Shown here: one piece after another, positions 4,977-44,254 of the stretch
Numbering within the stretch: position 1 is the first letter of the stretch
Layout: every line of letters starts with the position of its first letter
Source of the DNA: Fibrobacteria bacterium
GTDB lineage: Bacteria > Fibrobacterota > Fibrobacteria > UBA11236
NCBI GenBank assembly: GCA_017881725.1
Contig: JADGQO010000113.1
Span: 1 to 52,205, forward strand
DNA: 52,205 bases
Reading direction: 5' to 3'
Notes under the pieces: generated by a model
Database searches by the model: none
Seen by the model: only the letters and a program-made list of their open reading frames with translations
What the model was told of the DNA's origin: nothing
Program-made: the position numbers and the translations under genes

Positions 4977-7245
4977 GTGGCTGCCCTGGCGGTACTTGAT
5001 CCGATCCTTCGCGCAGAAACGCGGTTTTATCGACCCCTTGGCCGTTTTGGCGAGGCTGGAGGCGGTATCCCAACCCGCCGAAGTCGTGGCCCCCCTGGAA
5101 CTGCTGCGCGCCGGTTTGGTGCTGCATGCGCGCGGTTTCATCAACAACCAAATCATCGAACACAATCTCGACTGGGTCTGGCCTCTTTGGGTGGAGCGGC
5201 AATTCGATCCGGCCCATGGAGCCTTCCTGCCCCGTGGTTTTTCCATGACCCATTTGAACCTGACCCAGCGGAATTGGACCGCTGTGGGCTGCCCCGGCTG
5301 CGCCGAAACTCCCATCCTCGACGGGCGCGGCCTGCTCATGCCGTTCTTCGATTCCTGGTCCCTGGACGCCTGGTTCATTGCCGACGACGGCGACGCCTTG
5401 ATTCCTTCGCGGATGGAATCGGTATCCCAGCGGCTGGAAACCCAAGGTAACTTGCGTGTGATCACGGAGTCCGAATTTCTCGGCATGCGGCTCTCTACAA
5501 CGGCCATGGTCGGTTTCACATCGGATGCGCCCGTATGTTCCTATGCGCTGCGGGCGTCCTCGCCGAAATCCGGATGGCTGGTCGCATCCCTGCGCCCTTA
5601 CAATCCGGAAGGCATCAGTTTCGTCAATGACCTTTCCCTGCTGCCCCGTGGGGAAGGCTGGAAAATCAACCGTGAACATGAAGTCCGGTTTTCCCGTTCC
5701 CCGAATCATGCTTTGCTTTCCCGCTACCACGACGGCGATGTGTATTTAGCCTTGGTGAAAGGCGAAACCCATGACCAGGAACATGTGGTTTGCGACGTCG
5801 GCATGGCTACGGGAGCGGTTCTCTACCGGGTCGAGGCGGGAGGTAACTCTGAAGTTACCCTAACCGTTCCCTTGGGACCGGCTCCGAAAAAACGCCTCCA
5901 AGCTCCCCTGTCGGCGGAGGTGATGTGGTCCGACGCCCTGCAAGGCGGGACGGTATTTTCGGGCGGTCCGGGCCGTTTCGCATCCCTGTACGAAACGGCG
6001 CGACGCACGGTCCTGCTTTTGTCTCCGGGGGAAATCTACGCCGGTCCCTACACGTATAAACGCTTCTGGTTCCGGGACGCGGCCATCATCCTGCACGCCT
6101 TGATTTGCGCCGGATATCGGGACGTCGCGGAAAGGGCCATCGAAGTCTTTATCGCCAAGCAATCCGCGAGCGGGTATTTCGTCTCCCAAAGCGGGGAGTG
6201 GGATTCCAATGGACAGGTGTTATGGGCCATGGGCAGGTTTTGCAGGGTGTTCAATGCGGCTCCGAAGGCCGACTGGCTTCCCGCCTTACGTAAGGCCGTG
6301 CGTTGGATCCGGAAGAAGCGCGCGGATGGTTCGGCCGATAAAATTTATTCCGGTCTGATGCCCGCGGGTTTCAGCGCGGAACATTTGGGACCCAACGATT
6401 ATTACTACTGGGATGATTTTTGGACCGTAGCGGGATTACGGCTTGCGGCTGAAATGCTGGGCAAACTCGGGGATGGTGAGGGTGCCCACAACGCCGTCGT
6501 CGAAGCCGAAGCCTTGTCTCAGGCCGTGGACGATAGTTTGGCCCGGGTGGCCGCGCGTATCGGGACGATCGGCATGCCGGCCTCGCCGCATCGGCGCATG
6601 GACAGTGGATCCATCGGATCGGTAGCCGTCGGATTTCCCTTGCAATTGTGGCCGGCTCGGGATGAACGCCTGGCCGCGACTTTGGATTACCTCTGCCGCC
6701 ATTGCCTCCTGCGCGGAGCGCTGTACCACGATATCACCCATTCCGGCATCAATCCCTACCTCAGCCTGCACTTGGCGCAGTGCCTGCTTCGGGCGGGCGA
6801 CCCGCGTTTCCAGGGCATCATGCAGTCCGTGGCGGATTTGGCCAGCGACACAGGCCAATGGCCGGAAGCGATGCACCCGTCACTGGGCACCGGCTGCATG
6901 GGAGACGGCCAGCATGCCTGGGCGGCCGCGGAATGGATGATGATGGTCCGTAACTGTTTTTTATATGAGGAGGAATATTCGGATAAGTTAGTCCTGGGAG
7001 CCGGTCTCACCGAGGCCTGGTGCGATCCCGCGACCGGACGCGCAACTTTCGGCCCGGCACCCACCCGCTTTGGTAACGTATCGGTTACCCTAGAGACAAA
7101 GGGCGATGACGCCGCGCTGACGTGGTCGGCCGAGTGGTTCGGAAAAGAACCGGAAGTCGAAATCCGTTTCGATCCTGCAGAATGGAAAGTCGTTTCCAAC
7201 TGGGGCGGGCATTGCGCTCTCGCGCGGAACAAGCGGGCTGTATGA
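4966..7245 (+). CDS. Six-hairpin glycosidase-like protein (glycogen-debranching/GH15-like fold)
   Basis: This 759-aa protein is predicted to be cytoplasmic, with no signal peptide. The N-terminal half (to about residue 330) is beta-rich. The second half reads as an (alpha/alpha)6 barrel, with YKRFWFRDAAIILHAL at about 364-379, SGEWDSNGQVLWAMGRF at about 408-424, and a YYYWDDFW motif near 480. These Trp/Asp-rich helices resemble amylo-1,6-glucosidase and glucoamylase-type six-hairpin glycosidases, but I cannot assign a GH number or confirm the acid/base pair. ATG 4966 is preferred because CGGAGG precedes it; the frame is open upstream inside the previous gene. It overlaps the fusion gene by 11 bases and shares ATGA with the next gene, so the three are probably one translationally coupled unit. 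Two exact copies of the GTAAC-N6-GTTAC dyad fall inside it. Confidence 0.75.
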   Translation: MWLKWLPWRYLIRSFAQKRGFIDPLAVLARLEAVSQPAEVVAPLELLRAGLVLHARGFINNQIIEHNLDWVWPLWVERQFDPAHGAFLPRGFSMTHLNLTQRNWTAVGCPGCAETPILDGRGLLMPFFDSWSLDAWFIADDGDALIPSRMESVSQRLETQGNLRVITESEFLGMRLSTTAMVGFTSDAPVCSYALRASSPKSGWLVASLRPYNPEGISFVNDLSLLPRGEGWKINREHEVRFSRSPNHALLSRYHDGDVYLALVKGETHDQEHVVCDVGMATGAVLYRVEAGGNSEVTLTVPLGPAPKKRLQAPLSAEVMWSDALQGGTVFSGGPGRFASLYETARRTVLLLSPGEIYAGPYTYKRFWFRDAAIILHALICAGYRDVAERAIEVFIAKQSASGYFVSQSGEWDSNGQVLWAMGRFCRVFNAAPKADWLPALRKAVRWIRKKRADGSADKIYSGLMPAGFSAEHLGPNDYYYWDDFWTVAGLRLAAEMLGKLGDGEGAHNAVVEAEALSQAVDDSLARVAARIGTIGMPASPHRRMDSGSIGSVAVGFPLQLWPARDERLAATLDYLCRHCLLRGALYHDITHSGINPYLSLHLAQCLLRAGDPRFQGIMQSVADLASDTGQWPEAMHPSLGTGCMGDGQHAWAAAEWMMMVRNCFLYEEEYSDKLVLGAGLTEAWCDPATGRATFGPAPTRFGNVSVTLETKGDDAALTWSAEWFGKEPEVEIRFDPAEWKVVSNWGGHCALARNKRAV
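5842..5859. repeat. GTAAC-N6-GTTAC dyad, exact copy 1
   Basis: GGTAAC-TCTGAA-GTTACC lies inside the glycosidase-like gene. The arms extend to 7 bp (GGTAACT/AGTTACC). In frame it encodes G-N-x-x-V-T, the same codon phase as the other four exact copies. Confidence 0.55.
7072..7089. repeat. GTAAC-N6-GTTAC dyad, exact copy 2
   Basis: GGTAAC-GTATCG-GTTACC lies near the 3' end of the glycosidase-like gene, 1,230 bases after copy 1. The arms are 6 bp and the codon phase is the same (G-N-V-S-V-T). Confidence 0.55.
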
Positions 7246-8620: not shown

Positions 8621-9298
8621 TCATTGCGGTTCCGCAGGTTGATCGTGTTTCGGGTGCAGTCGCTCCCATGCCGCCATTTTCCGGCGATATACCCGGGAAG
8701 CATGCTTCGACATCAGTAGCATGCCGGTTACTGCGGCGGCTCCAATCCCAATCAGGGCGAAGCGGCCGGTGGGATTTTCCAGCGGAACATGGCCGTGCAG
8801 GGATTCCGGGTCGGGAAGCAAAGAGCCGAGATAGACCATGGTGAACGTGATAGGCAAGGTGCCGAATACGGTCCCCCAAAAAAAATCCCGGAATCGATAC
8901 CCGGAGGCCCCGAAAAAATAGTTGGACAGCTTGAAGGGAAAGAACGGCGTCATGCGGGTCAAGGCCACGAATTTCCAACCCGATTCAGAGACGCTGGAAT
9001 TCAAGATTCCCAGTTTCGGATGCTGCCGGCAATAATCCATGACACGGCCCCGCAAGACTTGGCCGGCCAACCAAAAGGCCAGTGACGCTCCCAAGGATTC
9101 ACCCGACAGAAAAACCAAGGTTCCCGGGAACGCGCCGAAAAGAAATCCCGCCGCCAGGGTCAAGACCGCTCCGGGCAATAGGAAAACCACCGACACGGCG
9201 ACGGCTAGGATATAAAGCCCCAGTCCCCATGCGCCGCTTTGATGCACCGCAAGAATCAATAAGTGCACGCCATGGGCCCATGCTGAGGGCTCCGTCAT
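8621..9298 (-). CDS. VTT-domain (TVP38/TMEM64, DedA-like) membrane protein
   Basis: This is a 225-aa inner-membrane protein with about five hydrophobic segments. The diagnostic VTT/SNARE-associated Golgi region is present: FLLPGAVLTLAAGFLFG at about 38-54, an E/S-rich helix with GESLGASLAFWLAG, then ALTRMTPFFPFKLSNYFFGAS, with its conserved Arg and Pro-Phe, and FFWGTVFGTLPITF. Members of this superfamily are implicated in lipid scrambling. ATG 9298 follows CTGGAG at a good spacing and begins directly before the first helix. The frame is open a long way upstream, but beyond about 9450 that is antisense to leuS. It is convergent with the GT4 gene (74-base gap with no obvious terminator) and divergent from leuS. 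A basic C-terminal tail follows the last helix. Confidence 0.88.
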   Translation of the reverse strand: MTEPSAWAHGVHLLILAVHQSGAWGLGLYILAVAVSVVFLLPGAVLTLAAGFLFGAFPGTLVFLSGESLGASLAFWLAGQVLRGRVMDYCRQHPKLGILNSSVSESGWKFVALTRMTPFFPFKLSNYFFGASGYRFRDFFWGTVFGTLPITFTMVYLGSLLPDPESLHGHVPLENPTGRFALIGIGAAAVTGMLLMSKHASRVYRRKMAAWERLHPKHDQPAEPQ

Positions 9299-9466: not shown

Positions 9467-12076
9467 GTGCCCAGGTACAATCCGAAAATCGTCGAGCCCA
9501 AGTGGCAAGAATTCTGGCTGAAAAACAAGACCTTCAAGGCTGTGAAGCCGTCGTCCTCCGGGGCCGGTTCCTCCGCCGCTCCGTCGGCCACCAAGCCAAA
9601 ATATTATGCCCTGGACATGTTTCCCTATCCCTCCGCCAACGGATTGCATGTAGGCCATCCTGAGGGTATGACGGCCACGGATATCGTCTGCCGTTACAAG
9701 CGCATGCGCGGTTTCAATGTCTTGCATCCCATGGGTTGGGACGCCTTTGGTTTGCCTGCGGAACAACACGCAATCAAAACGGGCACGCATCCTGCCATCA
9801 CCACGCAAAGCAATATCGATAATTTCCGCCGCCAGATCCGTTCCTTGGGCTTCTCGTACGATTGGGATCGGGAAATCAGCACCGCCGATCCGAAATACTT
9901 CAAGTGGACGCAATGGATTTTCAAGCAACTGTTCGAAAGCTTTTATGACTTCGCCGCCGACAAGGCGCGCCCCATCTCCGAACTGCCTATTCCCGCGCAT
10001 GTTCAGGCGCAGGGTGAATCCGCCGTTCGCAAATACCGGGACTCCCATCGATTGGCCTATGTGTCCGAGGTGCCCGTATGGTGGTGTCAGGAATTGGGTA
10101 CGGTGCTGGCCAATGAGGAAGTCAGCGACGGAAAATCCGAGCGCGGAAGTTTCCCATGCGAGCGCAAGCCGCTCAAGCAATGGGTATTGCGTATCACGGC
10201 CTACGCCGAGCGCCTCATCCGTGATTTGGACGGACTGGAGTGGCCGGAATCGATCAAGATCATGCAGCGCAATTGGATCGGAAAATCCACCGGCGCTGAA
10301 GTGAAATTCCAGATTCAGGGCGGGGGAGAGTTGTCGATTTTCACCACCCGTCCCGACACCTTGTTCGGAGCGACTTACATGGTCGTGGCGCCGGAACATT
10401 CTCAACTGGATGGCTTCGCCTCTGCGGATTGCAAGGCTGCGGTTCTCGAATACCGGCGGCAAGCCAGCGCCAAGTCCGACTTGGAGCGCGGTTTGGATAA
10501 GGACAAGTCCGGCGTCTTCACCGGAGCCTATGCCATCAATCCCGTGAACGGCAAGGCCATTCCGATTTGGACTTCCGATTACGTCATGATGGGTTACGGC
10601 ACGGGAGCTATCATGGCGGTGCCGGCCCATGACACGCGCGATCATGCTTTCGCGAAGACTTTCGGACTGCCCATCATCGAGGTGATCCATGGGGTCAACG
10701 CCGATGGATCCGGTACTTCCGTTTCCGACGCAGCTTATACCGGCGACGGAAAACTGGTGAACTCCAATTTCCTGGATGGATTGAACGTTGACGCTGCCGA
10801 GGCGAGAATCATCGCTTGGCTGGAGGAAAAAAACCTGGGCCGAGCGCGCGTACAATTCAAGTTGCGCGATTGGTTGTTCTCACGCCAGCGCTATTGGGGC
10901 GAACCCTTCCCGTTGGTGCACACTCCGGAAGGCGTCGTTTCCGTGCCGGACCGTGACCTGCCCGTTACCCTGCCGGACATGCAGGATTACAAGCCCACCG
11001 GCACCTTCGAGCCGCCGCTGGCCAAGGCTAAGGCTTGGTCGGACTATCAAGGACCCGGACCGGCCGGTCGGCGTGAATTGAATACTATGCCGCAATGGGC
11101 CGGCTCCTCCTGGTATTTCCTGCGCTACCTCGATCCGGACAACGATCAGGCGCCGTTCTCCAAGGACGCGGAAAATTATTGGATGCCCGTCGATCTCTAT
11201 ATCGGCGGCGCGGAACACGCCGTGTTGCATTTGTTGTACGCGCGCTTCTGGCATAAATTCCTGTTCGACATGGGATACGTTTCGCAAACCGAACCATTCG
11301 CCAAACTCGTGAACCAGGGTCTCATCCTGGGCGAAGACGGTGAAAAAATGTCCAAGTCGCGCGGTAACGTGGTCAATCCCGACGATGTGATCGAGCGATA
11401 CGGGGCCGATTCCATGCGTCTGTACGAAATGTTCATGGGCCCGCTGGAGCGGCAAAAACCCTGGCAAACCGCCGGCATCGAAGGCCTGTGGCGATTCTTG
11501 AACAAGGTGTGGCGGCTCACGGTGGGCGACGATCGCATGGACGTGAAAATCGTCGCTGCGGAGCCGTCCGCGCAAATGATCAAACGCGGCCATCAAACCA
11601 TCAAGAAGGTGACCGAGGACATCGACTCGCTGCGGTTCAACACGGCCATTTCTCAGCTCATGATCTACACAGGCGAACTCGCCGAGGAGGCGGAGAAGGC
11701 CGGGTCGGATGGGGCAGGAGGGACCGTTGGATTACCGCGCTGGTCGGCCGAAACCTTGGTGAAATTGGTGGCTCCGTTCGCGCCGCATCTGGCAGAGGAA
11801 ATCTGGGAGATACTGGGGCATTTGGAAAGCCTGACCTACGTTCCTTGGCCGGAGTGGCGCGAAGAGTTGACCGTGGAAAACACCGTGAACGTGGTGTTCC
11901 AGACCAACGGCAAGGTGCGTGTGGAGCAAGCCGTTGCCAAAGGGACCTCGCGCGAAGCGCTGGAAAACTTGGCTCGGGCCAATGCGAAATTCCAACCCTA
12001 TCTGGAAAACGCGGAAGTAGTGAAAGTCATCGTGGTGCCTGACAAGTTGGTCAACTTCGTGGTAAAGCCTCGTTAA
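9467..12076 (+). CDS. leuS: Leucine--tRNA ligase
   Basis: This class I aminoacyl-tRNA synthetase charges tRNA-Leu. It is 869 aa, the normal bacterial size. The HIGH-type motif is HVGH at residues 61-64 inside [16 protein letters not shown], and the KMSKS loop is at about 626-630 ([15 protein letters not shown]). The CP1 editing domain is present, with [13 protein letters not shown] and [15 protein letters not shown], the latter carrying the conserved editing Asp. The anticodon-binding and C-terminal domains end in [12 protein letters not shown]. The start is GTG 9467, preceded by AAGG. A Ser/Ala/Pro-rich insert of about 16 residues lies between the N-terminal helix and the HIGH region (about residues 27-43), which is unusual but far from the active site. 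rdgB follows 14 bases later. Confidence 0.98.
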
Positions 12077-12090
12077 TCGGAATGGAATGA

Positions 12091-12837: not shown

Positions 12838-15800
12838 CTACTTCTTCCGCAATAAACCCGTGCGGGTATATTGGACTTCCTGCTTTCCGTCGGCGAATTC
12901 AAAACGCACTTTCCAAACGTAAACTCCCTGACCCGCCAATTGCCCGTGGGAGTCCTTGGTGTTCCATACCAAATAGCCAAGGACGCCCTTTTTCACTCGC
13001 CGATTCATATTCGCGAATTCGCCCATGGCGCCGAACACTTGATCCGACGAATTCACGAAATTTCCTGTAATGTCGAAGATGGATATGTGCGCGATGTACG
13101 GGGAGGTTGTGACCACCTGGAGCGCGCTGATATTGGTGGGCACTGCTACCGGTGATGCTCCATCCGAATTACCCTTAGGCAAATTTTTCAATCCATCAGT
13201 AATGGTATAAGGAGTAAAGGGTGCGCCATCCACGAAATTTACCGGTGGGAGCCACAGTACCTTGAAGCCCTTATTGTCATCGTTGGTCGCGAACCCGGTC
13301 ACTGGATCATGGCTGTCGTTGACGGCCGTGAGGTAACTCTGGCCATTCGTGGCGGGATCCAAGCCGACAACCGGCGGATACCCCCTGAAGACCTGAATGG
13401 CATTTTGACGATTATTTCCCGTTAACTTTACGCCGAAAATCGGCACGGGGTTGCCGGGCATATCGGAATATTTACCGGGATCGGCATTTAAGAAAATGCA
13501 GTCAGTGACACTCGGTGATGTTGCCGTCGCATTATCCACGATGACCTTGTAACTCGTGGAGTCCGCGTTGGTCGGCGTGGGTTCAACAAAGGGGGTAATC
13601 GTGGTGGAGTGGGCGTAATCGCTGCAGCTCGTCGCGAACTTCAAAATTTCATTGAAATCCTTGCCGGCCTTGATGGGTTCCGACAATGTAATGAACAGCG
13701 TATCCCGAGTCAGATTGGGGTCTTTAGTCACCAGCGGATTGACCACGCCGGGATGCTTGACCGCTGAAATCAAAATCGGACCGATGGAATCCACAATGGC
13801 CGGTTTTTGTCCTTGGAAGAAGGCGTCATTCGGCAATACCGCATTGGGTATTTGCCCCTTTGCCACGCCCGTCAAACCTATCGCATACGGCTTACTCAGG
13901 GTTAAGACTACGGTCGTAGAATCGCCGTTTAAAAAGGAAATCGTACCATCAGCAGGACCGATTTTGGGGGTGGAAACGGTGTCATTCCATTGCACCTGCA
14001 AAGTGGTCGGCAACCGGCTCAGTTTGTTCTGGAAAACGACGTAGACCTTATCGCCGGACCCGTCCCCGTTGCTGTCCTTGATATAGGCTTTCACGATAGG
14101 ATCGAGAGCAGCTTGTAAATCCACATTGGTTTTTACGGTTCCGCCACCGACCGTGACCTGCCCCGTTGCCGTCACGAAATTGACTTGCTGGTTGGGAAGG
14201 ATTTTTCCTTCCAGGATTCCGTTGACGGTCGGGTTGGTGTTTTGCACGAACTTAAACGGTACTTGTGCTACGAATTTCTGCGAGTATATACCCGTCTCAA
14301 TCGCCTTGAAGGTTTCCGTTTCGCCTTGGGGTGTGGTAAAGGTCACCAAAATGGTATCGACCTGGGTCAAGGAAGGGCTCTGCGCGTTAACCACGGCGTA
14401 GAAGACCGATCCTTTGCCTTCCTGCACGGACGAGACAGGAGTGGCTCCGTCAGGGGAAAGGGAATAAGTCAAAGTAGTGGTCACCGGATTGTCGATAACG
14501 ACACGGATTTCCTTAGTGTCGTTATAAGGCGGAACCTTTACGCTGCCGATGATGACGTCGGAAGGTTTACATTGCAACACGCCGTCGGCGAAAACCGCTC
14601 CTTCGGTTTTCGAAATGATTTTCGATTCATAAGTGCCGGAAGCGACGTCCTTTTCAATCAACATGACATTGACGACTTGATCCTTGCTTTCCGAGCAGCT
14701 CAAGGTCGCGTAAAGCGTGTCTTTGGCTGACGAAAGGCTTTGCATTTGGGCGATGACTTGGATGAGTGTGTCCGCCCGATCAACTCCGGTGGTTGTCTTT
14801 CCGGGCACCACGATTTTGAGGTTTCCGTCGAGGTTAGGGTAGGCGACCAGCAAGTCGTCAAAGGCCAATGGGCCGACGGGGCTTCCCGATTTCGTATGTG
14901 ACTGCACGGTAGCATGAACGTTGCCGAGAATGTAGGTTTCAGCGACGCCGTTACCCCTGGTGATCGTGGGCCCGGAGGCGAGTTTGATGGAACCGTCCCA
15001 TACCCCGGTGTTTCCGGAATGTTTGGCAAGGTTCAGGGTCACCTTAAAAACCTCCGAATCCGGAGCCGCGTTGCCGAAATTGTTAACGATGGTCAGGGTG
15101 ACCGGTATGCTATCCATGGTGCCCCCCACCCAATCGTCTTTGTAGGTCAGGTAAAGAAATCCTGCCGCCGGGCTGTAGTAAACATTGGAGGGAAGGACGA
15201 CTCCATCTTTATCCGTAAACTCTAGTGAAGCTTCCAATTCCGGAGCGGATCCGAAGCCCGCTACCGCGATGGCAGGGCTTTCCGCGTCATACGGATCGGA
15301 ATAGGTCCCTTTGATCTGGTCGTCGATAATCATCTGGATGATTTTGTCGCCGGTGGCGGGCGTCGGGATTAGGCTAACGGGGATGGCAACGCCATAGACT
15401 CCAGGCGACGGATTCAGGTTGAGGTCCAAGACTGCTGCATCTTCGGGCGTCACCACCGTCCCCACCCTTCGGGTGGTTTGCAGGGTCACCTGCGGTTTGG
15501 ATCCGGCGGGCAGCACTTCGTCTTTCACGAAATAATAAATGGTGGTTTCCGTGCCCGCGTACTGCGTCGTCGCGTCCGAGCCGTTGGCGTTGGTTGAAAA
15601 ATAAGCGGTGGCTTGCACGGGTGCGGGGCGGACCAATACGTGCTTTTCCGCGACGTCGGTCGGGTCCAAGGGATTGATCCATTTAACGATGAGGCTGTCA
15701 TATCCGCTCACGCTCGCTTCCGTTTTTCCATTGTTGGCCACCGCCGTTGCGATGACAAATGGAGTGGCGCCTGAGAAAATGAAGTTATCGCCCTGGCTTT

Positions 15801-17542: not shown

Positions 17543-20500
17543 TTAATTTCCTCGGCGCATCACACCGGTTCGCGTGTACATGATTTCGGATTTTTTATTC
17601 TTCTCCAAGAAGGTAAAGGCCACTTTCCAGACGTAAACTCCTTGCCCGGCCATTTGACCCCGCTCGTCCAACATATCCCAGACCAGGAAGCTCAACTGGC
17701 CTTTATCCGTCGCGCGCCAGGGGTTTTTATCTTCGCCATTGAATCCGTAAGCCTGCTCCATATACCGGACTGGAGTGCCAAGATTGTCGAAGATATGGAT
17801 TTGGGCTCTGTAAGCGCCGGAAGAAATGACTTCCACCGTGCTAAGGCTAGGCGGCATGGGGCGCGGAGTGGAAACTTCCGGTCGGCGAACCCCGCTTTGC
17901 GGATCGTTGAAATGTGCGGCGATATCGGTTAACGAACCAACGGGGTTGTTCTCCTCGAACCCATAGGGCGGAATCCAAGTGACCTGCCATTCGCCATTGC
18001 CGCCTTGGTTGCTCCATGTTCCCGTCTTATCTACCCGATTGTCATTGGTCACGACCACGAACCCAGGCGAATTGGGGTCCATGCCCGCCACAGGCGGATA
18101 CCCACGGAATTCTCGAATGGTGAGCTTGGGATTATCACCGGTCAGTTTCACTCCCAGCCGGCCCGGCGCATTGCCCGGTAAATCCAAATAGCCGCCACCC
18201 GCTTCCAGGAATATACAGTCGTCCACCAGCGGCACTTGCGTATCCGGCGTATTGTCCACGATGACCGTATACTCAATGCCGTCTGACGTCGTCGGTTCGC
18301 TATAGGTCTTCACGGGAGCGGATCCGGTGTAATCCAGGCATCCCTTCGAGAACCGCAGCATGCTTCCGAAATTTGCAATCGTCGTTTTGATTTTTTCGGA
18401 AAGCGTAACCACCAAGGTGTCGGGATTGAATCTTTTCTCCGTCAGCGAAACGTTATAGCTCTGCAAGTTGGACGGGTGCTTTACCGCCGTGACCGGTACC
18501 GGCCCGACTGAATCGGCCAGCGGGGCATGCTGACCTCCGAAAAGCGCGTTCGCGGGAAGGACCGCGTACGGAGCCTGTCCCGAAGGGATGCCGGTGAGAT
18601 GATCCCCGAATTGGGATTTGGAAAAATCGACGACGACGATTGAGGAATCGGTACCCTGGAAGGACAGCATTCCGGCATCGGCTTTCCGGTTGAAATCCTT
18701 GCCGACTTGGTTCCAAAAAACGGAGTCCAAAGCAGCCGGAAGGACAGGCAATTTATGATCGAACACCAAGTAAACATGATCGGCCATTCCATCCTGGTCT
18801 TTATCCATGATATAGGCCTTGGTGACCAAATCGTAATTGGAGGACATGCTGAGATCATTTTTCGCCGTTTGGCCCGCGACCACCGTCGTTCCCGTAAGGG
18901 TAACCTGGTTGGTACGGCTGGTCAGCGAGATTTGCGCTTCCACCTTTTTGTCGCCGGTTTGGGGCGTTGCGACGGTGAAGTTGAATTCGGCGGTGACGAC
19001 ATATTTCCCGGTCATGACACCCGTTTCAACGGCTAAGACGGTGTCTTTGTCGCCTTGGTTCGTGGTCAGTACTACTTGAATGGTGTCGATTTTATCCCGG
19101 GTCAGGCTTTTGCCTTCCACGATGATTTGGAAGTTTTTATCCGTCGCATCCGTCACGGAGGAAATGATGGAACCATCCTTGGTGGAAACGAAGTAAATCT
19201 TGGTGGGTGGATCATCGGACCAACGCACGGTGGCGCTCCGCGAATCGCCGTAAACGGGATCGGTATAGGTCACCGTAAGCACGTCGGATTCCAGGCATTG
19301 CAAAATCGCATCCGAAGAATTCGGAATACCCGCCGAAATTTCGCCTTTGTTCACGGGAGGCTGGGCCACGTAGGCCGTTCCGTTCCATACCAGAATCACG
19401 TTGGAAATTTTATCTCCGGATTGCACGCACGTGACGATGGCGCTGATGGTCGCTGGCCCGCTTTTGGTCACCAGTTGATCGTGGATGATGATGTTCACGG
19501 CGGTCGTTTTGCGATCCACCGCTTTGCCGGAAGTGTCGGTGATGATGATGTCGGCCGGTTGATTGGGGTAGGCGATGGAAAGTTTGGCCGAAAGGTCCGG
19601 GCCGACGAAGTCCCCGGCATTGGTGTGCGGGGTCACTACGGCTGTGAGCGCTCCCAAGTAATAGGACTCGAGCGTATCGTTATGGAGCTTGGCGGCCGCT
19701 TTGTCCGCCAGGGCTAAGGATCCTTCCCAAGTGCCGCGCGTGCCCGTGGGCGTGGCCGTGAGAGTCAGAGTTACGGTTTCCGTATCGGTCCCCACCAAAA
19801 CTCCGGACTTGGAGTTGGCAAGATACAGGCGAACCGGGATTTTATTAACCAAGGAATCGATGCCCACGTTCCAATCGTCGGAATAACGCAGGTTAATTTT
19901 GCCGTTGGTCGGGCTCCAAATATCGGTGGGCGCCAGGGCCGCGCCTTTAGAGTCGATGAAGGTGAGCGCCGGGCTTTCCTGCACAGCCTGGGCGAAGCCC
20001 GCGTCCCCGCGATAATTGTTGTCCTTGTAAACCGGGTCGGTAAACACAGCCGTCAATTGATCCCCGGCAATCGCAACCTGAATCGTGCCGTCACCGGGTT
20101 TTTTCGCGTTGGTACCAACGGGAGCTTTTGCGGAAAAAATGCCTGGGGTGATTTCAGTCAGGGTGAGGATTTCCTGATCGGCTCCCGACGCGCTTGAAGA
20201 CAAAGTTACAGTATAAGTCAGCCCGGGATCCTTGGGGCGCGTTTTGACGACGATGTACACTTCAGTGGTGGTGTCGGGATATTGCGTGATGCGAGCCCCG
20301 CCCTCGCTGCTCGAAAAGTAAACATCCGCGGCTACGAAGGCCGGCTTGATAATCAGGGTGTCCAGCGCCGAGTCGGCGGCGTTGAAGGGGTTGACCCACC
20401 GGGCGATCAAGGTGTCGGTTCCGATGGCTTCGATGGTGTCGTTACCCGGCGCTTTCGGCGTGCCGTGTTTGAGGTTGACCAGGCTGGAATACTGGAAATT

Positions 20501-31766: not shown

Positions 31767-33373
31767 TTGAAAACGGCGTAGGCGCTTGTCTTTTGTCTTG
31801 GACCTGGTTCCTGCCCTTGCTCGCGGCCGGAGTCATGATGTTGTTTCCGGCCGGCAACTCGCGAGGCGTCAAAAGGTTCAGCCTAGGCGCCAGCGTGGCC
31901 AATTTGGTTTTGGTGCTGGTGCTGGCGACGTCTTTTTTCATGCATCCCCCCGTTCCCGAGCCCGGTTCAGGCGTGTCCGCCCTGGCCTTCGCGGCCGACT
32001 TCGCTTGGTTCCCGGCCCTGAATATCCATTACCATATCGGCGTGGACGCCATTTCCATGTCCATGATGGTTCTCGCCGCCGTCATTGTGCTCTGCGGTAC
32101 CATGGCCAGCTGGGGCGTGGAAAACCGGGTCAAGGAATTTTTCATCCTTCTGCAAATCCTGGCGGCCGGCGTGTTCGGCAGTTTCATCGCCTTCGACCTG
32201 TTCGCCTTTTTCGTGTTCAATGAGTTGACCCTCATCCCCACTTATTTGCTCATCGGCATGTTCGGCAGCGGGCGCAAGGAGTTCGCCGCCATGAAATTGA
32301 ACCTCATGTTGATGGGCGGCTCGGCGCTGATTTTGTTGGGCATTCTGGGCCTGTATTTTGAATCGGGCATCCGCAGTTTCGATATCACCGAACTGGCGCG
32401 CATCCATTTCGACAAGGGATTCCAAATGTGGGCCTTCCCGGCTTTGTTCCTGGGATTTGGAATTCTCGGCAACATGTTTCCGTTCCATATCTGGTCGCCG
32501 GACGGACATGCTTCCGCGCCGACCGCCATTTCCATGTTCCTGGCCGGCGTGCACATGAAACTGGGGAGTTACGGTTGCCTGCGCATCGCCATGTACTTGC
32601 TTCCCGAAGGTTGCCGTCCGTGGATGGACGTGTTCCTCATATTGGCCGTAGGCGGAGTCGTATGGGGCGCTTTCGTGGCCTTGAAGCAAAAGGATTTGAA
32701 ATACATGAACGCCTACTCATCGGTGTCGCATTGCGGCCTGGTATTCCTGGGGCTTGCGGCCTTGAACGTCACCGGCTTGCGCGGGGCGGTCATGCAAATG
32801 CTGGCGCACGGATTCATTACAGCGGCGGTTTTCTGTCTCATCGGGATGATTTATTCGCGGACCCATACCCGGCGCATACCGGAAATGTCGGGACTAATGG
32901 CTTCCATCCCATTCCTCTCCGTTTGCTTCGTGATGGCGGGATTCGCGGGCCTGGGCCTTCCGGGCATGGCGGGATTCGCGGCCGAGCTGAATGTCTTTGT
33001 CGGCGGCTTTGCAACCGGTCGGCCCTTGGTGGTATTCGCCTCCGGGATTGCGGTGTTGTCCATCATTCTGACGGCCATCTACATATTACGCGCCGCTAAC
33101 GGAATCTTACATGGGCCGTCCCGGTCTTCCGGCGGCGGTATTGCCCTTGACGCCCATGCTGCAATCGGCTCAGCGGCCGGCCAAGACGGTCACGCCGGTC
33201 ATGGCGAAAGTTCAGCCTTCGACAGCGCAACTCTTGTGGACGCGAACTGGATGGAGCGGTTGCCTGTTTTGCTTCTCTTGGGTTGCATAATCGGCCTGGG
33301 ACTGTTTCCCGGGCGTATCGCCGGACTTTTGGATCAAGCGTTGCAGCCCATTTTAGAAAACCTGAATCGATGA
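31763..33373 (+). CDS. nuoM: NADH-quinone oxidoreductase subunit M
   Basis: This is a 536-aa antiporter-like proton-pumping subunit. Conserved elements include GVDAISMSMMVL, FDLFAFFVFNELTLIPTYLL (functional Glu), FHIWSPDGHASAPTAISMFLAGVHMKLG (Lys-containing broken helix) and DLKYMNAYSSVSHCGLV. GTG 31763 overlaps the nuoL stop. Like nuoL, it carries a His/Asp/Gly-rich insert near the C-terminal end (about residues 458-485, QDGHAGHGES). The final part is the last transmembrane helix and a short tail. Its stop is 40 bases before nuoN. Confidence 0.97.
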   Translation: MIENGVGACLLSWTWFLPLLAAGVMMLFPAGNSRGVKRFSLGASVANLVLVLVLATSFFMHPPVPEPGSGVSALAFAADFAWFPALNIHYHIGVDAISMSMMVLAAVIVLCGTMASWGVENRVKEFFILLQILAAGVFGSFIAFDLFAFFVFNELTLIPTYLLIGMFGSGRKEFAAMKLNLMLMGGSALILLGILGLYFESGIRSFDITELARIHFDKGFQMWAFPALFLGFGILGNMFPFHIWSPDGHASAPTAISMFLAGVHMKLGSYGCLRIAMYLLPEGCRPWMDVFLILAVGGVVWGAFVALKQKDLKYMNAYSSVSHCGLVFLGLAALNVTGLRGAVMQMLAHGFITAAVFCLIGMIYSRTHTRRIPEMSGLMASIPFLSVCFVMAGFAGLGLPGMAGFAAELNVFVGGFATGRPLVVFASGIAVLSIILTAIYILRAANGILHGPSRSSGGGIALDAHAAIGSAAGQDGHAGHGESSAFDSATLVDANWMERLPVLLLLGCIIGLGLFPGRIAGLLDQALQPILENLNR

Positions 33374-33413: not shown

Positions 33414-34907
33414 ATGAACAGCTTCACTTTATTCCTTCCCGATTTGGCGCTGTTGGGCCTGGGAATCTTAGTCTTGATTGCGGATATGGCTTCCGACGTC
33501 ATCTTATCCGGAGCGGCCTTGGCCCAAGCGGATGCCGCTGCCTTGGCCGGTCGACGCGCCAAAACCTCTTCGCTGCCCTTCCATCTCGCCTGGATTGGAC
33601 TGTGCGTCATCGCCTTCGGCTTGGTCCTCATTCCGTCTCCGTCTGGGGAAACGGGTTTCGGCACGTATGCCGTGACGCGCGGTAGTTTATTGTGGAAATT
33701 GTTGTTTACGTTTGCCGCCATCGGAACGGTTTGCTTGTCGCGCACCTATTTTACTCCGGGGGGTAGCGCGCGGGGTACCTTGACGCGTCCCGGAGCCTTC
33801 TTCAGCCTCATTCTTTTTTGCCTGTCGGGCATGTACGCGGTGGTGTCCGCGCGGGATTTGCTCACTTTTTATTTGGGCCTGGAATTGGCCACCTTACCGC
33901 TGTATGCTTTGACGGCTTTCCTTCCCAAGGATCGTGATTCGGTGGAAGCAGGTTCGAAATACGTCCTCATGGGCGGATTTTCCTCCGCCTTATCCCTGTT
34001 TGGAATGTCGTTTATCTACGGGGCATGCGGTGGAATCACCTTCGATACCGTGGCTGCGGCCGCGACGTCGTCTCCGACGGATCCCTTGCTGTGGGGCGGC
34101 ATTTTGTTTTTGCTGGGTGGCTTGGGCTTCAAATTATCCATGGCACCTTTGCATATGTGGACACCCGATATTTACCAAGGGGCGCCGACACCGGTCATGG
34201 CCTTTTTATCGGTGGGCTCCAAAGCCACGGCGGTGGCGGCTCTGGTGGTTTTGTTTTTAGGCCCATTCGAGGGATTGCGGCCCTTCATGGTGGGATTCAT
34301 TTCGATAGCGGCCATCTTGTCCATGGTGGTCGGAAACCTTGGGGCGATGCGCCAGAAAAATCTTCGGCGCTTCGTGGCCTACTCCTCCATCGCCCAAGCG
34401 GGATACATGCTCCTCGCGTTTACGGGTGAATCGGAAAGCGTGCGTGCGGCCTTGCAATACAATTTATTGGCCTACGGCGTGACAAGCTTCAGTTTATACC
34501 TCGTCATGAGCATAGTGGGTCGAACCGGCCAGGAAGACTTTACGGCATTACGCGGACTCAGTAAACGGAGCCCCGGAACCGCGGCGTTGCTTCTGCTGGC
34601 CATGTTCAGCTTGGCAGGGATTCCGCCCTTGGCGGGGTTTCTAGGGAAGTTCCTGCTTTTCTCGGCGGTGGCGGCGCAGGGCCATTACGTCCTGGTTGCA
34701 ATCGCCGTCGCGAACGCAGTAGTGTCGTTTTATTATTACATGCTGGTCGTCAAAGAAGCCTATATCACCGAGCCGGATGGCACGGAGCAAAGAGTGATAC
34801 TTTCCCGAGGACAGAAAATTTCCGCCATCGGGCTGGCCCTGGGGTTGATTGTACTGGGAGTTTGCCCGGCCATGGGCAATTGGCTGACATCGCGCGGCGG
34901 ACCTTAG
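33414..34907 (+). CDS. nuoN: NADH-quinone oxidoreductase subunit N
   Basis: This 497-aa antiporter-like subunit closes the operon. Core motifs are LTFYLGLELATLPLYALTAF (functional Glu), GFKLSMAPLHMWTPDIYQGAPTPVMAFLSVGSK (functional Lys) and LRRFVAYSSIAQAGYML. The region after helix 1 has an Ala-rich insert (about residues 28-48). The final codons GGC GGA CCT TAG coincide with an insertion-sequence boundary. The stop TAG is part of the 7-bp target duplication, so the protein end is unchanged by the insertion. The original downstream sequence is preserved beyond the element at 36799. Confidence 0.97.
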   Translation: MNSFTLFLPDLALLGLGILVLIADMASDVILSGAALAQADAAALAGRRAKTSSLPFHLAWIGLCVIAFGLVLIPSPSGETGFGTYAVTRGSLLWKLLFTFAAIGTVCLSRTYFTPGGSARGTLTRPGAFFSLILFCLSGMYAVVSARDLLTFYLGLELATLPLYALTAFLPKDRDSVEAGSKYVLMGGFSSALSLFGMSFIYGACGGITFDTVAAAATSSPTDPLLWGGILFLLGGLGFKLSMAPLHMWTPDIYQGAPTPVMAFLSVGSKATAVAALVVLFLGPFEGLRPFMVGFISIAAILSMVVGNLGAMRQKNLRRFVAYSSIAQAGYMLLAFTGESESVRAALQYNLLAYGVTSFSLYLVMSIVGRTGQEDFTALRGLSKRSPGTAALLLLAMFSLAGIPPLAGFLGKFLLFSAVAAQGHYVLVAIAVANAVVSFYYYMLVVKEAYITEPDGTEQRVILSRGQKISAIGLALGLIVLGVCPAMGNWLTSRGGP

Positions 34908-37633: not shown

Positions 37634-39453
37634 AGTTCCCGGTCCAGTTTTCGAAGAAGGGTTTCCGCCGTATCCAACGCTTCTTTCCATGTCTTGTCGT
37701 CGCGTTGCGACCCGCCGAACTGACCGAAGTCGCAGAGTTGCAGCAGCTTGCCGTATTCGACCGAAATCGCTTCCGGCAGGCCATGCACCACCAATTTTGC
37801 CTTCGCTTCCTCTTCGGTAAGCCCGCGGAATTCAATGTTCAATTTGTCGCTCACGAAACCGACTACGGCTTGGGACAGGGCTTTATAAAAATCACGCGAG
37901 TTTTTTTGCTTCAGCGCCTCGTTAGCCTCTTTCAAGCGAAGGCGAAGTTGGGCGCTCGCCTGGGTTTTACGTTTCAAAGTCGCGTCCGATTGCAGCCTAT
38001 GACTGCGGCGGCGAATCACGAGCAAGAGTCCGAAGACTATGGGGGAGGGGAGGAACAGCAACCAATACCACAGTTCCCGATACAGGAAATCATCCTCACT
38101 GTGCAGCGCGCCATTCCCAATCTTGATATGCCGGATGTCGGACCCGATGTCCGTGATCTCACGTTGGCTCATCACATGGGTCGGGGCGGCTTCGGACTCT
38201 TTGCCTTGAGTCACGGTCAACGTGATAGGCTGGGATTTCGCCTCGGTAAAAATCTTCCGGTTCGGATCGAAATACGGGAAGGCTACCGGGCCTAGGTTGT
38301 ACTCGCCCTTGCGGTGGGGAACAATCACGTATTTGAAGGTCTTGGTCGAGACGAGGGTCGTTCCCTGGATGGTGGAGGTAGAGGTAATTTCCGGATCGAA
38401 AACTTCGAATTGCGACAAATCGGGCAAACGGGGTTTGGTCAAGGTTTTCGGCTGTCCGTCCCCGCGAATGGTTATGGTCAAGGTCAACGCTTCGCCCGAT
38501 GCCAGCGTGGTTTTATCCGCCGTGGCCGTCAGGGAAAATTGACCGACCGCGCCGGTAAAATCGGCCGGAGCGCCTTCCGGCAGAGAGGCAATTTCCATGG
38601 AAATGGGATTGGCCACCGATGTCAACGTCACGACTTGTCCGCCACCGAAAAAGTCGTCGTCGAACATATCGAAGACGGAACCTTGCCGGCGCTGCCGCCC
38701 GCGCGTCACTTGCTGGTATTCCACCGGAATGCCGGACAGTTCCGCTTTTCCAACCAACAGCGGAAATAGTACGATGCGCACATCATAAACCCGGGTATCC
38801 TGACCGTTGATTTTCACGACCTTCGGTTCGATATTCTTATCCAGCCGCTGGAAGAAAAATTTCTCCCCGATCAATTTCTGTAATTCGTTCGGGTAGTTGA
38901 TTTGCTGCACCCCCTGGCCGGCAATGATGCGCAGGGTATACAAGACCTGTTCGCCCACGAAGGCGGATTTCTTGCTGAGGGTCGGAACCGTGTTCAGCGC
39001 CGCTTCCTGTTTGGTCACGGTAACGCTGGCGCTACCCATTTGACGATCATAATCCTTGTAGGTGTACCGGATGGGGCCGACTGGGAAGGTTCCGGGTTTC
39101 TGCGCTGTGAGCTTAAATACGAAGGTCGTGATATACAGATTGCGTTGCGATATCCGCCCATTGATGATCGACGTTTGCATGCTTCGGGACGTTCCGGTTG
39201 ATTTCGCGACGGTGAACTTGTCCAAACCTTCCACCGTCGGCCAGGGCAAATTGGCCGCGTTATCGTCGGCCGTGACCTGGACCGATAGTTGGAACGGCTC
39301 GCCCACGCCCACGTCCTTGGCGGAAATCGAGGCTTCCGCGGAAATTTCCGCGCGCGCGGAAGTGGCGAACAAGCAGACGATCGTGCATATCAAAGCGAAA
39401 AATGCTCCGAATGGCCTATGGGAGAAGTCGAATTTATTGCCTACGAACGGCAT
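37630..39453 (-). CDS. batD: BatD oxygen-tolerance protein
   Basis: This 607-aa protein has a signal peptide (FFALICTIVCLFATSARA) and a long periplasmic region of repeated beta-sandwich domains (residues about 35-440). It contains SAKDVGVGEPFQLSVQV, KSAFVGEQVLYTLRI, and KTTLASGEALTLTITIRGDG, the recurring VG-E/A-G-E strand pattern of BatD. One transmembrane helix follows at about 472-490 (WYWLLFLPSPIVFGLLLVI), then a cytoplasmic helical tail of about 110 residues (NEALKQKNSRDFYKAL, GLTEEEAKAKLV). ATG 39453 is chosen because it overlaps the preceding stop (TAATG). It probably works with BatA/BatB at the inner membrane. Confidence 0.93.
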   Translation of the reverse strand: MPFVGNKFDFSHRPFGAFFALICTIVCLFATSARAEISAEASISAKDVGVGEPFQLSVQVTADDNAANLPWPTVEGLDKFTVAKSTGTSRSMQTSIINGRISQRNLYITTFVFKLTAQKPGTFPVGPIRYTYKDYDRQMGSASVTVTKQEAALNTVPTLSKKSAFVGEQVLYTLRIIAGQGVQQINYPNELQKLIGEKFFFQRLDKNIEPKVVKINGQDTRVYDVRIVLFPLLVGKAELSGIPVEYQQVTRGRQRRQGSVFDMFDDDFFGGGQVVTLTSVANPISMEIASLPEGAPADFTGAVGQFSLTATADKTTLASGEALTLTITIRGDGQPKTLTKPRLPDLSQFEVFDPEITSTSTIQGTTLVSTKTFKYVIVPHRKGEYNLGPVAFPYFDPNRKIFTEAKSQPITLTVTQGKESEAAPTHVMSQREITDIGSDIRHIKIGNGALHSEDDFLYRELWYWLLFLPSPIVFGLLLVIRRRSHRLQSDATLKRKTQASAQLRLRLKEANEALKQKNSRDFYKALSQAVVGFVSDKLNIEFRGLTEEEAKAKLVVHGLPEAISVEYGKLLQLCDFGQFGGSQRDDKTWKEALDTAETLLRKLDREL

Positions 39454-40079: not shown

Positions 40080-41185
40080 ATCACCCCCACGCCCGGCTGC
40101 TGGGCCCGTGGATCCTGGCCTTGAGGCGGAGTCGGAGTTTCCCCTCGCAGGATTTTCAGCACATCGTCGATTCGTTGAACGAAACTTTGATAGGTTACGG
40201 CAGTCTTATCAGATTGAATCACGGCTTCCAACATTGACTTCGCTTCGGCATATCGCCTTTGCTGCACCAATTGCATGGCGCGCGCCAGGATGTCCTTCGC
40301 TTTTTCGGAAGGTTCCGGCGGCGGCTGTTTTTGTCCGTTCTGCTGTTGCTTTTGATCCTGCTTCTGTCGATCCAGCAATTCCTTGATGCGGGCCTGCACG
40401 ACTTCGATGTTGCGTTTCGCATCTTTGTTATCGGGCGCGATTTCCAGGGACTTTTTATAAGACGCCATTGCTTCGCGGTAGTCCTCGATGCCTTCCTGAT
40501 GCCCACCCTGAATCGCGAACTCTCCCTTGCGGAATTGGGCGTTACCGAGGTTGTAATAGGCCTTGGCCGCTATCGAAGCATCGTCGCCATGGAGCGCCTT
40601 TTTGAATTCCTTAATGGCGTCATCATATTTTTTCTTCCGAAACTGGGCATCGCCCATGTTATAGGCCAACGCCTGCGATTCCGGTTGATCCAATTGCGCT
40701 TCAGCGTAATTTTGCAGCGCCTGGTCATAGTCGCCGGAGGCGTAAGCATTCGCGCCGCGTTTGCCGGGCGAACCGCCCGCGCCCAGGAGACGTTTCAATT
40801 TCGAAAACAGCGACGGTTTTTTTCCCGAGTTCCGGTCCAGTTGGGAAAGCAAATCCTCCCCGGAGCCGTTACTACCGATTCCGCCGCTGCCGCCATTTGC
40901 ACCCAGATTGGATCCGGAGCCGTTGGACCCTAGGCCGGGAGATGCCGTGCCTGGTGCGTTGTCCAATTGGACGCCGCGAGAGATTTGCGCGCCGGATGAA
41001 CCCGAGGTCTGGGCTGATCCGGAATCGGGTGCGACTTGGATTTGCGACCAGCACGGAGCGAGGTAGAGTACGCCCAGTGCCATCGCAAAAGGCGCGAATC
41101 TCCCGGTAAAGATCCCAAGGGCTTTCTCGGACGTAACCTTGAGGTTACGTCGACGCGTCCACCCGGAGAGGAAGCGGTTCATCAT
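40076..41185 (-). CDS. TPR-repeat periplasmic protein (BatC-like)
   Basis: This 369-aa protein has an export signal after a basic n-region (FAMALGVLYLAPCWS, about 32-46). It then has a Gly/Ser/Ala/Asn-rich linker (about 50-105) and three to four TPRs (about 128-245: ANAYASGDYDQALQNYAEA, AYNMGDAQFRKKKYDDAIKEFKKAL, AYYNLGNAQFRKGEF). A Gln/Lys-rich break follows, then a final TPR-like pair (LARAMQLVQQRRYAEAKSML). ATG 41185 follows GGGAGGTT and overlaps the batB stop. With the next gene it appears to split or duplicate the BatC role. An exact GTAAC-N6-GTTAC dyad lies in its N-terminal coding part. Confidence 0.82.
   Translation of the reverse strand: MMNRFLSGWTRRRNLKVTSEKALGIFTGRFAPFAMALGVLYLAPCWSQIQVAPDSGSAQTSGSSGAQISRGVQLDNAPGTASPGLGSNGSGSNLGANGGSGGIGSNGSGEDLLSQLDRNSGKKPSLFSKLKRLLGAGGSPGKRGANAYASGDYDQALQNYAEAQLDQPESQALAYNMGDAQFRKKKYDDAIKEFKKALHGDDASIAAKAYYNLGNAQFRKGEFAIQGGHQEGIEDYREAMASYKKSLEIAPDNKDAKRNIEVVQARIKELLDRQKQDQKQQQNGQKQPPPEPSEKAKDILARAMQLVQQRRYAEAKSMLEAVIQSDKTAVTYQSFVQRIDDVLKILRGETPTPPQGQDPRAQQPGVGVI
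41131..41150. repeat. GTAAC-N6-GTTAC dyad, exact copy 4
   Basis: Arms ACGTAACC and GGTTACGT (8 bp) flank TTGA, the most symmetrical copy. It lies near the 5' end of the TPR gene; on the minus strand it encodes N-L-K-V-T in the same codon phase as the other copies. Confidence 0.55.
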
Positions 41186-43202: not shown

Positions 43203-44254
43203 GCTTTGCCCCCCGTAACTGTGGCGTTACCTGGGGCCGTGGTCCCATCCTCGCGCGGCCGGGTTTGTCTCAGGAAGTCTTCCGTTTGGGCCAGCCATTG
43301 CACGGCCTCGGCCTCGTTTAAAGCGGCATTCGCGAATTTGACCAAATCAGTGGCGTCGCAGAATTTCCCCAACCAATCCTTTTGAGCCATGGTAATCGGA
43401 TATTTTTTCACTCCGACTAAAAACTCCGAGGTGGTTTGTTCGAGAGCTTCGACGCCATACCGTCGGCTGATATACCGGCGCAAGGATTCCGATAGTTGGA
43501 AACAAAATTCGCGGGCGCGATTTTGGCGAATCAGGATCATGGTTTTCAAGGCGATTAGCGCTTCCATCGCCTCTTCGAAAGGCGGCAACGGTGGCTTTTC
43601 CGGAGCCGGCGCGTTTTTCTTTCGCAGTCGACGCCAGAAGAAATATCCGGCGAGGGCCAAAACCGCGGCGCCTATTCCGTAAAGCAACCAGGGTCGTCCC
43701 GATTTGGGTTCGATCAAGCCCGCGATGTCGGCGATGTCCTTCACCGTTTCCGGCGAAGTCCGAACCACATTGATTTCGATGGGCTGAGTGTAAAAACCGG
43801 CGACGACGGCAGTATCGTTGCCCTTGCGGTAAAGGACCACTTGAGGCGGAAGCGTGTATTTCCCGACGGTAAAAGTCGAAAGATTGAAATGCCACGTTTG
43901 GATTTTCAGCGCACCGGCCGGTTTGGGATCTTCAGCCTGGTAATCCTTGACTTCGAAGGCGCCCAGGTTCCCGAGCACGGAAGGCAGCTCGACATTTCCT
44001 TCCTTGGGATAAACCACCTTGATTTCGTATTGGATGCGATCGCCGATGGTGATTTCCGATCGGTCCACCTGGGAGGAAATGTCCAGCCCGTTTTTCCCCA
44101 GTGTCGTTGAGGTGGCGGACGTGGGGCTTCCCGATGCTTGGGTTGCCGGAGCCAGGGTCGTGGCCGCAGGGCTGGCCGAATGACCCGGCATGGATCCCAC
44201 TATATATGCCGTAGCGAAGGCAAATAGATATGACGCTGGTCGGAGGCAACTCAT
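43199..44254 (-). CDS. Short BatD-like / DUF4381-type membrane protein
   Basis: This 351-aa protein has a signal peptide (YLFAFATAYIVGSMPGHSA), a Ser/Thr/Ala/Pro-rich spacer, a single beta-sandwich domain (about 56-170: DISSQVDRSEITIGDRIQYEIKVVYP, a BatD-like strand) and one transmembrane helix (about 195-212, LLYGIGAAVLALAGYFFW). A cytoplasmic helical tail follows (about 225-320: EEAMEALIALK, RAREFCFQLSESLRRYISRRYGVEALEQTTSEFL). It occupies the position of the DUF4381-type gene before batA in many Bat operons. Start 44254 overlaps the preceding stop (ATGA). An exact GTAAC-N6-GTTAC dyad lies at its 3' end. The name is by architecture and position. Confidence 0.8.
   Translation of the reverse strand: MSCLRPASYLFAFATAYIVGSMPGHSASPAATTLAPATQASGSPTSATSTTLGKNGLDISSQVDRSEITIGDRIQYEIKVVYPKEGNVELPSVLGNLGAFEVKDYQAEDPKPAGALKIQTWHFNLSTFTVGKYTLPPQVVLYRKGNDTAVVAGFYTQPIEINVVRTSPETVKDIADIAGLIEPKSGRPWLLYGIGAAVLALAGYFFWRRLRKKNAPAPEKPPLPPFEEAMEALIALKTMILIRQNRAREFCFQLSESLRRYISRRYGVEALEQTTSEFLVGVKKYPITMAQKDWLGKFCDATDLVKFANAALNEAEAVQWLAQTEDFLRQTRPREDGTTAPGNATVTGGKA
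43215..43230. repeat. GTAAC-N6-GTTAC dyad, exact copy 5
   Basis: GTAAC-TGTGGC-GTTAC lies just before the 3' end of the short BatD-like gene, about 12 bases from the batA start. On the minus strand it encodes G-N-A-T-V-T in the same codon phase as the other copies. Confidence 0.55.

Follow-up and report, generated by a model that had tools for sequence, protein, structure and literature searches.

Sites of the palindrome in the window

The stretch of DNA analysed here (the window) comprises 52,205 nucleotides of contig JADGQO010000113.1 from the Fibrobacteria bacterium assembly GCA_017881725.1. It carries, among other genes, a nuo-bat region, and scattered over it is the gapped inverted repeat GTAAC-N6-GTTAC, the subject of this work. 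The placement in Fibrobacterota is consistent with its content: its NuoD is 76-81% identical to six loci of Fibrobacteres or Fibrobacteria metagenome-assembled genomes (MAGs), and it encodes a fibro-slime protein. The five exact copies named in the original prediction (5843, 7073, 25508, 41133 and 43215) are all present, with none in 100 dinucleotide shuffles. When at most one mismatch is allowed, the window has 16 matches (the five exact copies and 11 with one mismatch), where shuffled sequence gives 0.48 on average and at most 2. Among them are the variants predicted at 1011, 4765, 18900, 30634 and 47338; the one predicted at 1279 has two mismatches, a form not directly searched for, and lies outside the 20 sites that reach the threshold score of 12 with a 26-bp weight matrix. 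These sites are listed below, as palindromes without a strand ("search" denotes the search with at most one mismatch).

1011..1026, variant site GTAACCATCCGGATAC (search and matrix, score 16.7)
4765..4780, variant site GTAACACCTGGGCTAC (search and matrix, score 16.9)
5447..5462, weak variant site GTAACTTGCGTGTGAT (matrix, score 12.9)
5843..5858, exact site within ORF 4897-7245 (exact match and matrix, score 21.1)
7073..7088, exact site within the 3' part of ORF 4897-7245, directly upstream of the glycosyltransferase ORF 7122-8546 as listed (exact match and matrix, score 20.8)
8716..8731, variant site GTAGCATGCCGGTTAC (search and matrix, score 16.7)
10953..10968, variant site GTGACCTGCCCGTTAC (search and matrix, score 17.3)
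14909..14924, weak variant site GTAGCATGAACGTTGC (matrix, score 12.0)
18900..18915, variant site GTAACCTGGTTGGTAC (search and matrix, score 16.3)
25508..25523, exact site in a fused gene, between its NuoB and NuoC parts (score 21.7)
29695..29710, variant site GTAACTTGCAAGTTTC at the beginning of a nuo gene for an antiporter-type subunit (search and matrix, score 22.2)
30634..30649, variant site GTATCGTGGAGGTTAC (search and matrix, score 20.1)
31638..31653, variant site GTAACCGCCGTGATAC (search and matrix, score 16.4)
32557..32572, variant site GAAACTGGGGAGTTAC (search and matrix, score 13.6)
33763..33778, variant site GTAGCGCGCGGGGTAC, also present in G002 and G005 (matrix and alignment, score 16.1)
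39020..39035, variant site GTAACGCTGGCGCTAC, also present in G002 (search, matrix and alignment, score 15.9)
41133..41148, exact site close to the start of the TPR gene in the bat region (score 21.2)
43215..43230, exact site at the 3' end of ORF 43199-44362, directly upstream of the next gene, which encodes a VWA/BatA protein (exact match and matrix, score 20.3)
47321..47336, left half of a double site with 17-bp spacing (matrix, score 15.9)
47338..47353, right half of the double site whose left half is 47321..47336 (score 15.2)

The window belongs to the genome G000 (5,223,238 bases in 235 contigs), one of six genomes of the genus (G000 to G005) that were examined, all of which carry the motif. 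Detailed counts were made in samples of 426,108 bases of G000 (the window and 20 further stretches), 400,000 of G003, 200,000 of G002, 100,000 of G005, 260,000 of G004 and 142,964 of G001, with genes called by a simple custom script rather than a standard gene finder. The stretches of G001 were chosen blind, and the sampled contigs of the other five genomes were taken from hit lists. Exact copies per Mb in the sample and in the whole genome are 105.6 and 98 for G000, 60 and 50 for G002, 11.5 and 10 for G004, 7 and 14 for G001, 60 and 39 for G003, and 110 and 46 for G005; because these values disagree, the sample densities of G003 and G005 must be regarded as too high.

Excess over chance and codon expectation

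The whole genome G000 contains 513 exact copies, compared to 4 of a reversed-letter control. The spacer is fixed: in the G000 sample 45 copies have a spacer of 6, and every other spacer from 0 to 30 yields 0-2. The excess persists when the genes are compared with their own codon-shuffled versions. In the sampled genes of G000 the exact word occurs 31 times against a mean of 0.41 and a maximum of 3 in 100 shuffles, and the corresponding counts and means are 18 and 0.13 in G003, 10 and 0.25 in G002, 11 and 0.10 in G005, 3 and 0.04 in G004, and 1 and 0.03 in G001. With the matrix, the genes of G000 have 135 sites where their codon-shuffled versions give 14.4, and those of the other five genomes have 25-78 where the shuffled versions give 3.1-10.4; therefore close to nine in ten in-gene matrix sites represent excess. 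Markov random sequence made for G000 gave 0 matrix sites in one run and 11 in another. The sites even force the use of rare codons: 46 of the 771 TTA codons in the sampled genes of G000 lie within them.

Selection at the DNA level, as originally proposed, is thus strongly supported by the whole-genome counts and the codon-shuffled null, both of which had been named in advance as tests able to overturn it. The explanation by chance or by codon and protein bias can appeal to the TAA stop codon, which constrains the use of phases, and to the roughly one tenth of in-gene matrix sites expected from codon-shuffled genes. It is contradicted by the codon-shuffled nulls, by the specificity of the spacer and by the restriction to the genus described below; it is already refuted for the excess as a whole, and what probability it retains is practically nil.

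A further argument for selection had been that all five copies lie inside genes and in a single codon phase. The five can indeed be placed in one phase, but the 74 in-gene exact copies of the six samples are split between phase 0, which uses GTA and TTA codons (29), and phase 1 (45), with none in the phase that reads TAA; hence the earlier phase argument was an accident of five copies. The in-gene location also stands only in part, as the copy at 41133 is in a gene only if ORF 40076-41203 starts at a distant GTG, and our gene caller places it between genes. The six samples together hold 96 exact copies, of which 13 fall between genes and 9 overlap a gene boundary.

A graded site, partly paired

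When 45 exact copies are aligned on both strands, preferences extend beyond the arms: position -1 is G or C and rarely T, position -2 is rarely T, and the second base of the spacer is rarely A. The arms themselves tolerate a characteristic set of changes. The partners found at N6 from a perfect GTAAC in the G000 sample are in excess by 126-fold (GTAGC), 42-fold (GTACC), 41-fold (TTAAC), 36-fold (GTATC), 24-fold (GAAAC) and 21-fold (GTCAC). Each of the six genomes has GTAGC, GTATC, GTACC and GAAAC among its partners (with counts down to 2 in the small samples), and TTAAC and GTCAC are found in some genomes only. Base A is present at the third arm position in 91% of sites and at the fourth in 73%. 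To judge from the sequences, such a graded half-site profile fits a protein dimer rather than the strict word of an enzyme.

At score 12, matrix sites occur on average every 2.4 kb in the G000 sample and every 2.6-5.2 kb in the other samples. Multiplying the number of exact copies in each whole genome by the number of matrix sites per exact copy in its sample (for G001 the density was used instead), and without deducting the null of about one tenth, we estimate about 2,000 sites in G000, 1,100 each in G002 and G005, 860 in G003, 1,600 in G001 and, roughly, 1,000 in G004, where the sample holds three exact copies only. The genomes of this genus thus contain roughly 800-2,000 sites each.

Neighbouring sites at most 40 bp apart are exactly 17 bp apart in 13 of 21 cases against 0.14 expected, and in 2,000 random placements no gap length was seen more than 3 times. 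The paired sites read GTAAC-N6-GTTAC-S-GTAAC-N6-GTTAC, with variants. The word of three half-sites, GTANC-N6-GNTAC-S-GTANC, occurs on the two strands 36 and 36 times in G000, 4 and 7 in G001, 21 and 27 in G002, 10 and 13 in G003, 8 and 6 in G004, and 31 and 33 in G005, with 0-2 for reversed-letter controls. Across 150 genomes of the phylum it is in excess in this genus only: outside it, G009 has 1 and 3, and the other 143 have at most one per strand. Matches of the 33-bp double site to viral contigs were seen on two contigs only. Graded variants and the accumulation at 17 bp would together fit a dimeric protein able to stack on DNA.

Genus restriction and positional turnover

Exact copies number 83 in G001, 252 in G002, 210 in G003, 60 in G004 and 311 in G005. 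Four genomes of the sister genus have 1, 0, 2 and 23, the one other genome of the order has 2, and 50 other genomes of the class have 0-6. No matrix sites were found in 101 kb each of G006 and G008; 185 kb of G009 contain 7, compared to 2 in random sequence, and 50 kb of G010 contain 1, compared to 2. An alternative palindrome in G009, AGTAC-N3-GTACT, was discarded, since seven of its nine copies lie in one tandem array of heptamers, with one copy about 110 bp before the array and one elsewhere. The array itself (L139, 19007-19178) is based on AGTACTG/AGTACCG.

Orthologous positions were compared over 20 kb of the nuo-bat region with five relatives. At 6 of 31 aligned positions of G000 sites a site (score at least 10) is kept. 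Four relatives lack a site where the exact site at 25508 aligns, five lack one at the position of 30634, and two exact sites have no aligned counterpart. The position of 32557 scores at least 10 in three of five relatives, which may be due to conservation of the protein. As far as the alignments of this region indicate, the number of sites is kept and their place mostly is not. Some coding sites around two TetR genes are common to three or four species, and a nearly identical site stands beside a CRP-like gene in both G000 (L193, 2139) and G003 (L192, 2138) and counts among the shared positions.

Several features of the compared region deserve mention in their own right. NuoB and NuoC are fused in one frame of 409 aa (24721-25950) with a linker of about 115 residues, and the exact palindrome stands between them. 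Further short nuo matches, on other contigs (G001:C103, G002:C17, G003:C39, G004:C81 and G005:C62), point to another complex I cluster in the genus. Elsewhere in the window, at 2529-4976, a frame of 815 aa combines a phosphodiesterase-type match with an exonuclease III-like endonuclease/phosphatase domain.

Position along the chromosome and relative to genes

Site density does not differ beyond chance between 13 contigs of G000 (p=0.32; 12 of them were chosen for holding a listed copy), between seven blind-picked contigs of G001 (p=0.17) or between two contigs of G003 (p=0.14), and the spacing between sites is about random. Windows of 5 kb with low GC content are poorer in sites in the six genomes (Spearman 0.32-0.46, p 0.00008-0.08), the opposite of what the AT-rich arms would lead one to expect. 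The window has a lower-GC stretch of its own, which encodes two very large proteins (12838-17196 and 17543-23533) with PA14, Fn3-associated and chitobiase C-terminal domains and which holds 2 of the 20 matrix sites.

One might regard the palindrome as a self-recognition or DNA uptake signal, whose bearers are preferentially taken up or spared. The uptake sequences DUS and USS likewise have high copy number, turnover of positions and a maintained density, which is of a similar order here, and the depletion of sites in low-GC DNA, which may be foreign, would agree with such a role. Known uptake words are not gapped dimeric palindromes, the spacing of sites is about random and the 17-bp pairing has no obvious place in uptake; we consider this explanation quite unlikely.

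With respect to genes, 452 sites of the six genomes show excess at convergent (15 against 4.2 expected) and tandem (41 against 25.5) intergenic positions and not at divergent ones (12 against 12.4). They cross the 3' edge of genes 15 times against 4.5 expected and the 5' edge 7 times against 4.7. Within genes, 83 of 361 sites are in the last fifth and 57 in the first (p 0.034). Among the 96 exact copies 17 lie 1-50 bp past a stop codon compared to 3.4 expected (a value derived from four genomes), and two copies on the G000 list are spaced so that their own TAA is the stop codon. The excess past stop codons and in convergent intergenic regions would suit an element at boundaries or 3' ends that restrains the passage of transcription or supercoiling from gene to gene. 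Most sites are within genes, however, and the excess in question may merely reflect unconstrained DNA. Nor is the palindrome an intrinsic terminator, because the 45 aligned copies, inspected by eye, show no run of T behind them and the stem is of 5 bp only; we therefore hold a 3'-end function to be distinctly improbable.

Candidate binders

A search for the cognate protein was carried out in four families of DNA-binding proteins. For CRP, 28 of the 30 fetched loci could be placed (44 matches were listed, and the 14 weaker ones were left out); two groups are present in all six genomes of the genus, and both have relatives with the same type of recognition helix in the sister genus, in genomes free of the motif. 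For the OmpR family, to which the response regulator RhpR of Pseudomonas syringae belongs, 42 of the 43 listed matches were fetched and all 42 were placed, the search covering G000, G002, G003 and G005 within the genus. Here no group with members in G000, G002, G003 and G005 lacks close relatives in the sister genus, and the seven OmpR genes of G000 fall into groups that either have such relatives or are missing from some genome with the motif. One site lies within an OmpR gene of G000 (C43). HTH_8 frames shorter than 150 aa, considered as stand-alone Fis-like proteins, number only two in six genomes, one of them close to the edge of a contig and the other confined to G000, so there is no conserved short protein.

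The genus is richer in TetR genes (7-9 against 2-3). Of 48 listed matches 47 were fetched and all 47 were placed by profile, the search covering five genomes of the genus (G000 and G002-G005) as well as G006, G008 and G009. One group (L276, L275, L287, L270, L282 and L248) is distributed like the motif, being present in G000, G002-G005 and G009 and not in G006 and G008. Its members carry a conserved dyad of the TGAACRTTCA type directly upstream of the start, in the form TGAACATTCA or TGAACGTTCA and as a variant in G009. None of the six promoters has a matrix site of score 12 or more; the one site in the G003 locus is 416 bp upstream. Because the promoters carry their own dyad and no palindrome, this group probably has a different operator and matches the distribution of the motif by coincidence; it was rejected as the binder. 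Six intergenic double or clustered sites were also inspected by eye for autoregulation; their neighbours include a gene for a sigma-70-type factor (G000 C1), a csrA-like gene (G000 C11), and genes of enzymes, transporters, and envelope or flagellar functions.

Type I restriction-modification systems recognize sites with the layout of half-site, N-spacer and half-site, which the N6 form of our motif resembles. Their specificity subunits (PF01420) were found in G000, G001 and G005 and not in G002, G003 and G004, by a model that detected members in 9 of 14 control genomes; the three negative genomes carry 252, 210 and 60 exact copies, respectively. Type I methylation was rejected on these grounds and because strict recognition is contradicted by the graded variants. 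More generally, a methyltransferase site could accumulate because repair is directed by methylation, a mechanism that has been put forward for the cyanobacterial HIP1, the known precedent for mass accumulation (PMC4390886). The graded degeneracy, reaching into the flanks, speaks against this, as does the PF01420 result, though other methyltransferase families were outside the search. We regard the explanation as very improbable, and the modification site put forward in the original prediction is accordingly disfavoured.

Discussion

The motif was not found described, by title or abstract, in the open-licence literature, and no full-length form is among the matches listed there. The nearest phenomenon found is HIP1 (GCGATCGC), a palindrome restricted to cyanobacteria with a large genome-wide excess and an unsettled function (PMC4390886). 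Our palindrome shares all three properties, including a large genome-wide excess within genes. However, HIP1 is ungapped and tied to orphan methyltransferases, whereas the motif is gapped, graded and found in 17-bp pairs, and half of the genomes with the motif yielded no type I specificity subunit.

The nearest printed operator found is that of RhpR, which binds GTATC-N6-GATAC (PMC4191427), with the same 5-N6-5 inverted-repeat geometry, GTANC arms and four of five arm bases in common. The table of its sites from chromatin immunoprecipitation sequencing (ChIP-seq) includes sites with a GTAAC or GTTAC arm, some of them within a gene or overlapping a gene end (PMC4191427). These resemblances, together with the dimer geometry and the side-by-side pairs typical of transcription factors, speak for a 5-N6-5 operator bound by a global regulator of transcription (similar to RhpR, TyrR or CRP), with many dispensable intragenic copies. 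On the other hand, RhpR has 167 ChIP sites in P. syringae, and the present word is itself far in excess across the genome, with roughly 800-2,000 sites that are mostly in genes and, in the one region compared, mostly unshared at orthologous positions. Divergent intergenic regions are not enriched, and no fetched CRP or OmpR group is common to the tested genomes with the motif and yet missing from the sister genus. A regulator of this kind is unlikely, and the classical operator among the roles first proposed is disfavoured by the lack of sharing between orthologs and by a placement that is not centred on promoters.

Among the roles proposed at the outset, that of a chromosome-organising site fits best. 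We put at about even the chance that a sequence-specific protein of the genus, one that organises the nucleoid or chromosome, binds these sites, which would be maintained by density and would most likely serve an architectural role. According to this model, a homodimeric protein of the genus would occupy the palindrome, each subunit reading one GTANC half-site, with the half-sites 11 bp, or about one helical turn, apart. Two dimers could sit side by side, 17 bp apart, on the double site. The 800-2,000 or so sites would be scattered over the chromosome with their density, not their exact place, maintained; they would be tolerated within genes and at gene 3' ends and would not accumulate in promoter regions. 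The global task of the protein would be to shape or mark the chromosome as a sequence-addressed nucleoid protein.

Known systems resemble such an arrangement in part. The sites of MatP (matS), SlmA and Noc are also short palindromes that organise the chromosome, but they amount to tens of copies and are either limited to macrodomains or kept out of them; the motif has about 2,000 sites in G000 and no heterogeneity across the sampled contigs, in which the MatP/SlmA style of the original proposal is not apparent. The nucleoid-associated protein EbfC/YbaB is described as a binder of GTnAC words across the Borrelia genome (PMC9610160). Both GTAAC and GTTAC are such words, yet the motif is most tolerant at the fourth base (GTANC) and not at the third, as is evident from the 126-fold excess of GTAGC compared to 21-fold for GTCAC.

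Several observations weigh against an architectural protein. A minority of sites is shared above chance (the 6 of 31 positions compare with 8 of 15,337 random positions scoring at least 10), and some sites may therefore act locally. Strict 33-bp double sites are few (7, 0, 2, 1, 0 and 1 in G000 to G005), so stacking must be a minority feature. Two contigs of G004 differ weakly in site density (p=0.03), the matrix was trained and counted on the same DNA, and no cognate was found among the CRP, OmpR, TetR and stand-alone Fis candidates, with many families untested.

It is tempting to go one step further and consider the palindrome as the trace of an undescribed sequence-addressed nucleoid system, in which one dimeric protein has imprinted roughly 800-2,000 graded, partly paired sites on the genome, selected over synonymous codons; we hold this tentatively, at somewhat less than even chance. 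If it is true, the genome of this genus carries a genus-specific protein address that is largely independent of the host gene. To our knowledge, few such genome-wide in-gene words exist in bacteria, and HIP1 is still without an agreed function. The palindrome offers a clean natural case of genome-wide selection on DNA sequence within genes, and, as it looks like a dimer site and has a defined geometry, its binder could be pulled down directly, which would test whether bacteria write nucleoid architecture into coding sequence.

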